Positions 4,340 to 33,201 of a DNA stretch of 50,400 bases are shown here, piece after piece (positions within the stretch are counted from its first letter, which is position 1; every line of letters starts with the position of its first letter). The notes below the pieces were generated by a model. It saw nothing but the letters and a program-made list of their open reading frames with translations, was not told the DNA's origin and searched no databases. Both the position numbers and the translations under genes were made by a program. Origin of the DNA: Sulfurospirillum sp. (GTDB lineage: Bacteria > Campylobacterota > Campylobacteria > Campylobacterales > Sulfurospirillaceae). The DNA is taken from the NCBI GenBank assembly GCA_014859685.1, contig JACUTU010000009.1:1-50400 (forward strand), in the 5' to 3' direction.

Positions 4340-4500
4340 ACGCATCAAGTAACTGCTGTTATGCACTAAAACAAATGCGTCCGTTTTCCTAAAGAAACCT
4401 CGTTTTTTAGCAGAAACAAATGCTCCTACAGTCCCCTAAAGCGACGAAAAGAGTACTTTTTGAGAAAATGAGAGGTATTTACGAACTTTTTCACCAAGAT
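4340..4500 (-). repeat. Dispersed hairpin-rich intergenic repeat, copy 1
   Basis: Read on the minus strand, this stretch matches 21423-21556. A block of about 56 bases beginning AAAGTTCGTA and ending CTTTAGGGG differs at only about five positions. After a gap region the copies align again at GCATTTGT, AAAACGGACG and TTTTAGTGC(A/G)TAACA. Each copy folds into several short stems whose sequences differ while pairing is largely kept, for example AAAAG-TACT-CTTTT here versus CGAAAAG-TACC-CTTTTCG there. No open reading frame is shared. It fills most of the 205-base gap between hemJ and lgt. It could be a structured RNA, a MITE-like element or a REP-like sequence. Confidence 0.85.
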
Positions 4501-4538
4501 GCGTAAGGTTGATCAGGTAACTAAGAAAAGGAATTTAA

Positions 4539-21337: not shown

Positions 21338-21422
21338 ATTTTCATCTCCAAAAAAAACAAGACATTAAAAAAATAATAACATTAAAATTATATTTTTAAG
21401 TTTAAAAACTGACTTTACACAC

Positions 21423-21556
21423 TTTTGTAAAAAAGTTCGTACATACCTCTCATTTTCTCGAAAAGTACCCTTTTCGTAGCTTTAGGGGGGGGTTATAAGG
21501 GCATTTGTCCCTATAACTAAAACGGACGATCGTTTTAGTGCGTAACATCAGTTAAA
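21423..21556 (+). repeat. Dispersed hairpin-rich intergenic repeat, copy 2
   Basis: Matches the minus strand of 4340-4500. Three successive stems are visible: CGAAAAG-TACC-CTTTTCG; a GTTATAAGGG arm against CCCTATAAC with a CATTTGT loop; and ACTAAAACG-GACGAT-CGTTTTAGT. It fills the gap between the mlaA start and the 3' end of ssrA, so in the mlaA direction it lies directly upstream of that operon. No protein is encoded. Confidence 0.85.
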
Positions 21557-21571
21557 AAGATTTATAAAAAT

Positions 21572-26731: not shown

Positions 26732-28001
26732 CCTTTTTGGAATACTTTTTGGGCTTATGCTCATAGGTGTTCCGGTAGCCGTTTCACTCGGTGTTTCTAC
26801 TATGTTTACTGCGATGATATTTACTGATTTTGATGTATTGGGTGTTACTTCACATGTATTTGATGGTTTGAACAAATACTCACTTATGGCGATTCCTATG
26901 TTCATTCTAGCAGGTGCCTTTTTGGCACGCGGAAGTGCTGCTGGGCGTATCATAGAGTTTGCAAAATCCATAGTAGGGCATCTTCCGGGCGGGTTGCCTA
27001 TAGCGGCAATCTTTGCGAGTATCATCTTTGCAGCGGTTTCAGGAAGTTCTCCGGCAACTGTTGTGGCGATAGGATCTGTTATGTATGGCGCTATCAAAGA
27101 AGCTGGATATCCAGCAAAATATGCCATCGGTACTATCGCAACAGCCGGCTCTTTGGGTATCTTAATCCCGCCATCTATCGTATTTATAGTTTATGGCGTT
27201 ACTGCTGATGAGTCTATCGGTAAACTTTTTATGGCAGGTGTTATCCCTGGATTTATGCTCGGTGGAATGCTCATGCTTGTTACTTATATCGGAGCTAAAA
27301 AACTTGGATTTGAGCGGAGTGAACCTGCCCCATTTAAAGAGAAATGGGAAAAGTTCAAAAGTGCTTTTTGGGCATTGATGCTTATCGTTCTTGTTATCGG
27401 TGGTATCTATGGCGGTATCTTTACCCCAACAGAAGCAGGCGCTGCAAGTGCTGTGTATGCCTTTTTTGTGGCGTTTTTTATCTATAAAGATCTCAAATTC
27501 AAAGATCTCTATCCTATCATCTTAGATTCTGCGATGACAACTGCGATGATCTTTTTTATCATAGCAAACGCGATGATCTTTTCTCACTTTTTAACAGATG
27601 AGATGATTCCGCAACACATCACGCAAGTGATTCTTGATGCAAATGTCGGACCGATTATGTTTTTGATCATTGTCAATGTTCTTTTGCTCTTGATGGGACA
27701 GTTTATGGAGCCTAGTTCAGTAGTTATGATCACCGTACCACTGCTTTTACCAATCGCAAAAACACTCGGCATAGATCCTATCCATTTTGGTGTTATCATG
27801 GTTGTAAATATGGAAATCGGTATGATCACTCCACCTGTGGGGCTGAACCTCTTTGTGGCAAGTGGCATAACAGGACTCGATCTCAAAGAAGTCATCATGG
27901 CAGCCTTGCCATGGAGCTTAACCATCTTAGTGGGCTTACTCTTAGTAACCTATATCCCGATCATCTCCTTGTGGCTACCAAACTTGATGTTTGGAACTTA
28001 A
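26718..28001 (+). CDS. dctM: TRAP transporter large permease subunit
   Basis: A 427-residue membrane protein of the DctM/ion-transporter superfamily with about 11-12 helices. PMFILAGAFLARG, the SGSSPATVVAIGS loop, GTIATAGSLGILIPPSI and EIGMITPPVGLNLFV are family hallmarks. It carries out sodium-coupled substrate translocation. An upstream ATG at 26682 is in frame, but AGGAG at 26707-26711 is six bases from the ATG at 26718, which gives the canonical N-terminus. An inverted pair of TTACATGTAA motifs follows the stop. Confidence 0.93.
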   Translation: MIMTSLFGILFGLMLIGVPVAVSLGVSTMFTAMIFTDFDVLGVTSHVFDGLNKYSLMAIPMFILAGAFLARGSAAGRIIEFAKSIVGHLPGGLPIAAIFASIIFAAVSGSSPATVVAIGSVMYGAIKEAGYPAKYAIGTIATAGSLGILIPPSIVFIVYGVTADESIGKLFMAGVIPGFMLGGMLMLVTYIGAKKLGFERSEPAPFKEKWEKFKSAFWALMLIVLVIGGIYGGIFTPTEAGAASAVYAFFVAFFIYKDLKFKDLYPIILDSAMTTAMIFFIIANAMIFSHFLTDEMIPQHITQVILDANVGPIMFLIIVNVLLLLMGQFMEPSSVVMITVPLLLPIAKTLGIDPIHFGVIMVVNMEIGMITPPVGLNLFVASGITGLDLKEVIMAALPWSLTILVGLLLVTYIPIISLWLPNLMFGT

Positions 28002-28021
28002 ACTTCTTAACTTAAATTTCT

Positions 28022-28059
28022 TTACATGTAAGGGATTTTCTCTTACATGTAAGCTTTTT
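28022..28059 (+). terminator. Terminator built from two inverted TTACATGTAA motifs
   Basis: The arms TTACATGTAAGGGA (28022-28035) and TCTCTTACATGTAA (28039-28052) pair at 13 of 14 positions around a three-base loop and are followed by GCTTTTTC. The site lies 20 bases after the dctM stop. It is the clearest case of the iterated palindrome acting as part of a terminator. Confidence 0.7.
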
Positions 28060-31702: not shown

Positions 31703-31709
31703 TACAAAA

Positions 31710-31745
31710 TGGGGACAGGCTACTTTAATTAAGCCTGTCCCTTTT
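31710..31745. repeat. REP-like palindrome, also a probable terminator for porin 2
   Basis: GGGACAGGCT (31712-31721) pairs perfectly with AGCCTGTCCC (31732-31741) around a ten-base loop, and TTTTCTT follows. The left 20 bases are identical to the sequence at 32386-32405, at the left end of the RAYT gene. It is therefore the same repeat that brackets the transposase, in palindromic form, placed about 640 bp upstream. A degenerate relative (GGGTACAGGTCTAAACTTT) lies near 31776-31794. Confidence 0.85.
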
Positions 31746-32384: not shown

Positions 32385-33140
32385 TGGGGACAGGCTACTT
32401 TAATTTTAAATTTATCACTTTCTTGCTATAGTTCAAAATCTTTACATGTAAGAGGTGACAAATGCCACGAATTCCAAGAGGCGAGAGTGTTGGCGGACTT
32501 TATCATGTTATCAACCGTGGAAATATGCAAATGCAGGTATTTCATGATGATCAAGATTATAACTATTTTTTACAATTACTAGAGGATGGTTTAAAAAGAG
32601 AAGCTGTTAGTCTTCAGGCGTATTGCCTTATGCCAAATCATTTTCATCTTTTACTAAAGCCTGAAATAGAGGGAAGTTTGAGCCGACTTATGCAATGGCT
32701 TATGACATCACATGTGCGGCATTTTCATAAAAAGAACAAAACAAGTGGTCATATCTGGCAAGGACGATACAAGAGTTTTTTGGTACAAAAAGAGAGCTAC
32801 TATCTAAGCGTAATGCGTTATATAGAAGCCAATGCATTACGAGCAAAACTAGTAGATGATGCAGGTTTGTGGATGTATGGTTCGTTGTGGGAGCGGATGA
32901 ATCACGAACGAGAATTGCTAGATGAGCCATTGATGGAGTTGGGAAAAGATTGGGCTTTACATGTAAATGCACATATTAAAAATGAAGAATTGGAAGTGTT
33001 AAGAAATAGTGTCAATCGGCAAAGCCCGCTGGGCGATTTAGAATGGGTGATGCAAATGGCATATACATATGGTCTAAGAGCAACACTCAACCCACGAGGC
33101 AGACCAAAAAAAGAGTAGAATAAAAAGTAGCCTGTCCCCA
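32385..33140 (+). mobile_element. RAYT unit: transposase gene bracketed by 17-bp inverted REP repeats
   Basis: TGGGGACAGGCTACTTT at 32385-32401 is repeated exactly in inverse orientation at 33124-33140 (AAAGTAGCCTGTCCCCA). The gene between them encodes a Y1/HUH transposase of the RAYT family. A third copy of the repeat, as part of a palindrome, lies at 31710-31745. This fits a REP/RAYT arrangement in which the domesticated or single-copy transposase acts on the REP sequences around it. Confidence 0.8.
32462..33118 (+). CDS. REP-associated tyrosine transposase (RAYT, Y1/HUH family)
   Basis: A 218-residue protein of the Y1 transposase (IS200-like) superfamily. The HUH motif is H60-F-H62 in MPNHFHLLL; the catalytic tyrosine is Y113 or Y114 in QKESYYLSVMRYIEANALRA. 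The N-terminal PRGESVGGLYHVINRG and the WQGRYKSFLV segment are typical RAYT features. It is intact, is preceded by AAGAGGTG overlapping a TTACATGTAA motif, and lies within 17-bp inverted REP repeats. RAYTs are usually single-copy and vertically maintained rather than active insertion sequences. Confidence 0.88.
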   Translation: MPRIPRGESVGGLYHVINRGNMQMQVFHDDQDYNYFLQLLEDGLKREAVSLQAYCLMPNHFHLLLKPEIEGSLSRLMQWLMTSHVRHFHKKNKTSGHIWQGRYKSFLVQKESYYLSVMRYIEANALRAKLVDDAGLWMYGSLWERMNHERELLDEPLMELGKDWALHVNAHIKNEELEVLRNSVNRQSPLGDLEWVMQMAYTYGLRATLNPRGRPKKE

Positions 33141-33201
33141 TTTTTGAAAAAAAATCAGCTATAATAATATTTCAAAAAATCAAAATTTTAAAGGAGAATA
33201 T

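Follow-up and report, generated by a model that had tools for sequence, protein, structure and literature searches.

The hairpin-rich intergenic repeat that occurs twice in the stretch of Sulfurospirillum sp. DNA analysed here (the window: 50,400 nucleotides, positions 1 to 50,400 of contig JACUTU010000009.1) is best accounted for as a non-autonomous IS701-type transposon that carries and spreads a three-hairpin module, found across the order, that keeps its fold as DNA. We regard this overall account as likely, and its transposon part as well supported.

A family of MITEs with IS701-type ends

An initial annotation, made from the letters of the window, had noticed two imperfect copies about 17 kb apart on opposite strands, and this description stands with the limits now fixed as follows:

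4353..4513, + strand: copy A, full-length MITE of 161 bp (long subfamily, 160-161 bp), with ends CTGCTGTTATGCACT ... GATGCGTAAGGTTGAT
4346..4352, no strand: left copy of the target-site duplication of copy A, CAAGTAA, matching the right copy at 6/7 positions
4514..4520, no strand: right copy of the target-site duplication of copy A, CAGGTAA, read directly
4389..4467, + strand: three-hairpin core of copy A (covariance model R2, 56.9 bits, E 1e-10), first hairpin decayed
21409..21551, - strand: copy B, a 143-bp MITE of the 142-bp subfamily, 20 bp past the tmRNA 3' end
21402..21408, no strand: target-site duplication of copy B, one side, TTAAAAA, exact
21552..21558, no strand: target-site duplication of copy B, other side, TTAAAAA, exact
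21454..21541, - strand: three-hairpin core of copy B (covariance model R2, 69.2 bits, E 2e-13)
27972-28052, and flanks of loci L025, L026, L039 and L098 elsewhere: palindrome TTACATGTAA

Both copies are intergenic, as previously noted, and contain no open reading frame: copy A lies between UPF0093 and lgt, copy B between the tmRNA gene and mlaA, and neither overlaps any gene. Chance is excluded as the source of their likeness, since a conserved 23-base word occurs twice in the window with no mismatch where none would be expected even at up to three mismatches; an exact search of genome contigs with a 23-base word gave no match, the right arm being peculiar to this lineage.

The repeat is far more numerous than the window suggests. 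In the 2.1-Mb assembly of 23 contigs from which the window comes, copy A as a BLAST query found 43 matches and a core covariance model found 55 at E<=0.01. The family numbers no fewer than 55 core matches and includes at least 48 distinct elements in which both ends are present. Aligned copies share a fixed left end, CTGATGTTACGCACT, and a fixed right end, AGTGCGTAAGGTCAG, which together form imperfect terminal inverted repeats (TIRs). Directly outside these ends lie 7-bp direct repeats, exact in 17 of the 48 two-ended elements and within one mismatch in 28 (mean 2.9 and maximum 9, within one mismatch, when flanks were shuffled), and no 8-bp direct repeats were found at the same flanks. Lengths fall into classes of 161/160, 142, 108, 90, 65 and 40 bp, the shorter ones being internal-deletion forms; several short forms, including 40-bp ones, also carry the 7-bp duplication, so the interior, core included, appears dispensable for transposition, derivatives of 40 and 90 bp having moved. 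Having no transposase coding capacity, a length of 40-161 bp and at least 48 distinct copies, the repeat is a MITE. The initial annotation was thus right to call it a dispersed intergenic repeat, and missed its transposable nature. It had also allowed that the pair might be an old segmental duplication of an intergenic region should no further copies exist, a reading to which the sight of just two copies in the window lends itself; we rejected it, and give it practically no chance, in view of the copy number, the common ends and the target duplications.

Four 40-bp elements consist of almost nothing but the two inverted ends (L103 2509-2548, L098 3180-3219, L104 2436-2475 and L101 2543-2582); two of them have target duplications within one mismatch, and they are candidate minimal transposable units. 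The palindrome listed above is itself repeated in intergenic regions, and the MITE has inserted into it at least four times. At locus L105 the end of a 518-codon open frame overlaps with a MITE copy, which may have changed the frame. An empty site for copy A could not be shown, the sister species having other genes between UPF0093 and lgt.

No transposase adjoins either copy, again as first noted, and the clue to the mobile element lies elsewhere in the genome. One contig, C18, breaks off 52 bases inside an element that begins with the MITE end sequence, and an open frame on its other strand reads NQITYSELQKLKGA followed by a stop codon that lies inside the end sequence (locus L091). A degenerate search of 399 Campylobacterales genomes returned four further instances of this arrangement in three other genomes, so that IS701 transposase fragments ending inside the same end sequence are found in the present genome and in G247, G258 and G055. 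Of the C-terminal pieces, the longest matches NCBIfam NF049921 (IS701 family transposase, E 3e-14); a longer transposase copy in G055 scores above the curated cut-off of that model and has CTGACTTTACGCA as end sequence upstream of it. Named relatives are 1.1-kb IS701-type elements on plasmids of Polaromonas, Moraxella, Thiothrix and Piscirickettsia: the ends of three are exactly CTGATGTTACGCA or CTGACCTTACGCA and those of two have a single base changed. Exact 7-bp duplications flank three (TATTTAA, TTACTAA and TGACTAT), one has an apparent 8-bp repeat, and one has no visible duplication. An HMM search of the present assembly found no complete autonomous IS701 element, the 14 C-terminal codons at the contig end being all that was seen of one, and the three-hairpin core is absent from the IS loci examined.

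With terminal inverted repeats that match those of an autonomous element, and a duplication of 7 bp in both, the repeat is a MITE of this IS701 clade, and we consider it very likely to be moved by an IS701-type transposase. Such a transposase, supplied in trans, would bind the MITE ends and, using DDE chemistry, move the element to A+T-rich sites resembling TTANTAA, and the three-hairpin core would be cargo that is not required for moving.

The three-hairpin core and its distribution

The core consists of three hairpins and a conserved single-stranded string (AACCCCCUAAAGCUWC ... GAGA). The first hairpin often has the apical loop GAGCAAAGCYC or GAACnnGTCC, and at one position shows a conserved A-C mismatch (61/80 copies); the second has the form GGGAC-n-GTCCC; the third has the linker AACCCCCTAAAGCTWC before it and GAGA after it. 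In the linker, conservation of unpaired bases is 88-100%. An inner core word conserved between this genome and a sister genus was found at 57 loci, all in Campylobacterota; a 30-base word is conserved in these loci by construction of the search, and conservation figures were therefore taken from covariance-model matches.

Covariation is extensive in every alignment. In a structure-free MAFFT alignment of the 57 sequences (A2), 12 pairs show double changes, a number reached in 0 of 500 shuffles, and both pairing and double changes also exceed every slid control. Model alignments give a larger effect: both sides have changed in 24/26 pairs of A3, in 21/26 pairs of A4, which is mostly independent and drawn mainly from other families, and in 22/26 pairs among the copies of this genome alone; in A4 the third hairpin is 99% paired, and some of its positions carry several kinds of pair. 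The earlier proviso that covariation might prove no greater than sequence decay is thereby answered, the excess lying beyond both shuffles and slid controls. The related observation that stems vary yet stay paired holds for the family, of which copy A is a decayed member (fold z -0.62). Copy B folds well (z -4.2 as RNA, z -3.1 as DNA).

The core is present in 83 of 399 Campylobacterales genomes, representing 20 of 87 genera, and is absent from both other genomes of the genus to which the window belongs. Among genomes examined in full, the highest counts are 119, 69, 64 and 46 copies. No copy was found in phages or in viral contigs; plasmids yielded one diverged copy, on Sulfuricurvum kujiense pSULKU01. 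Of 75 copies in other families, 37 lack any recognisable IS701 end and 18 retain the left end alone, so the IS701 model leaves the spread of those 37 unexplained. Several arrangements in these genomes deserve mention: tandem arrays of the core in other families (L225, L227 and L233); core copies beside a tRNA ending CCGTCAGCACCA, apparently at the same site in two genomes (L116 and L254), one of which lacks the first hairpin and retains the linker and third hairpin intact; and, in one family (genome G081), cores inside larger composite repeats with more G+C-rich palindromes (L304, L306 and L308).

Might the core instead be a REP-type palindrome that a RAYT (Y1 tyrosine) transposase recognises or moves? 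Read on the complementary strand, the second hairpin is TTGTAG-GGAC...GTCC, by eye a GTAG-tagged palindrome, and the window does hold a RAYT gene:

32462-33118, + strand: RAYT-like (REP-associated tyrosine) transposase gene
31706-31726, 32385-32405 and 33124-33144, direct and inverted: repeats AAAATGGGGACAGGCTACTTT flanking the RAYT-like gene

The flanking repeat, however, is a different one; none of 30 Y1/RAYT genes has a core within 1.5 kb; and no Y1 match came from three genomes rich in cores (G130, G285 and G009), whereas genomes free of the core do have Y1. On these grounds we rejected this partnership as very improbable. Y1 transposases of similar length, often single, occur in most of the Campylobacterales genomes searched.

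Folded DNA or folded RNA, and possible constraint on the core

The initial annotation took stems that partly keep pairing while their sequence changes as a hint of selection on RNA structure. Were the core a regulatory or processed RNA with a definite structure, distributed by the MITE, this would account for the covariation in three helices, the highly conserved unpaired strings and the constant architecture between families, as well as for the good RNA fold of copy B and the greater conservation of orthologous copies than of flanking genes at most compared sites. In a strand that acts as RNA, G-U pairs are expected to be tolerated far more often than A-C. The 183 aligned copies of A3 and A4 contain 93 G-U and 128 A-C cells beside about 4,160 Watson-Crick cells, a count that leaves out the one position with the conserved A-C mismatch, whereas the acceptor and T stems of 18 tRNAs on the same loci gave 8 G-U and 0 A-C (Fisher P=0.001). 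Because these statistics are drawn partly from model-fitted alignments, whose lean favours G-U, the missing G-U excess is a conservative result. Nor is there a sense-strand bias: the ratio of sense to antisense relative to co-directional neighbours is 13:7 in this genome and 18:14 for TIR-less copies in other families, neither different from even. Copy B folds to a similar degree on either strand, and Rfam yields no match for the element at the gathering cut-off, nor, in four loci that contain copies, at E<=1. Thus, i) the lack of a G-U excess over A-C on one strand, ii) the lack of strand bias, and iii) the lack of an Rfam match together make folded DNA a better fit than RNA, and neither the pair counts nor the even orientation supports the proposal of selection on RNA structure. 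We lean towards a core that acts at the DNA level, and think an RNA unlikely.

Strand symmetry is expected of a hairpin or cruciform in DNA, or of neutral palindrome correction. In the second case covariation would arise without selection: template switching at replication would correct the imperfect palindromes of a neutral MITE in decay. Such correction fits the strict Watson-Crick pairing, the symmetry of the strands and the retention of pairing as sequence changes, but the conserved A-C mismatch of the first hairpin has never been "corrected", the unpaired linker is conserved too, and several orthologous pairs in Sulfurospirillaceae differ far less in the core than in their flanks. We think correction alone improbable as an explanation, to much the same degree as RNA.

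These orthologous pairs come from Sulfurospirillaceae, where several copies occupy a site shared between species; the family label, like the other genus and family labels used here, is provisional. Two species pairs with 18-19% difference in flanking genes show 1-2 changes in the 91 core bases at the first site; at a second, 0/91 bases differ against 11% in flanking genes; at a third, 1/91 against 12%. One further orthologous comparison (core 8/91, flanks 16%) gave no significant difference, and a closely related pair shows the opposite tendency (core 7/91, flanks 4%). The comparisons show a trend that favours constraint on the core, is not uniform, and may owe something to gene conversion between copies. 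Copies without one or both ends lie between divergent genes in 4 cases and between convergent genes in 17 (P=0.007), a deficit not seen in two-ended copies, nor in this genome.

Under DNA-level action, the stems would be kept as DNA hairpins, either as a cruciform or while single-stranded during replication or transfer, and the invariant linker and GAGA would be read by a putative protein. A specific core-binding protein is a candidate at somewhat less than even chances. The fuller proposal, in which the core is an order-wide functional DNA structure read by such a protein, hitch-hikes on IS701 MITEs, and is kept by the host after the ends decay, preferentially away from divergent promoters, is tentative and somewhat doubtful.

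Relation to other repeats

Small hairpin-rich repeats are common in bacteria and usually restricted to one species or genus, and what moves them and why they are conserved is seldom established. Here one hairpin module can be traced through many genera of a whole order, including many sulfur-metabolising relatives of Campylobacter; its likely mover can be named (IS701); pair statistics tell DNA-level from RNA-level constraint; a covariance model is ready for annotating these genomes; and a concrete question is raised, namely which protein reads the invariant linker. We found no description of the element in the open-access literature searched.

The closest known elements are IS701-family insertion sequences of the NF049921 clade (for example WP_011798057.1 of Polaromonas naphthalenivorans), which share the ends CTGATGTTACGCA / CTGACCTTACGCA and 7-bp A+T-rich duplications; unlike them, the repeat has no transposase gene and has a three-hairpin core. 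REP/REPIN elements with RAYT are likewise palindromic and extragenic, with GTAG beside a hairpin on one strand (PMC3733652, GTAG-tagged repeats), and the rarity of TIR-less cores between divergent genes is a further likeness; the core differs in that it is not linked to RAYT genes, is larger, has three hairpins, and in many copies has IS701-type ends. The bcr1 and related repeats of the Bacillus cereus group are also high-copy, intergenic and MITE-like, some with conserved secondary structure, and about half of bcr copies are reported to be transcribed (PMC3446304). Their lineage and ends are unrelated to those described here, and bcr1 was described from one species group (PMC3446304), whereas the present core spans many genera of one order.
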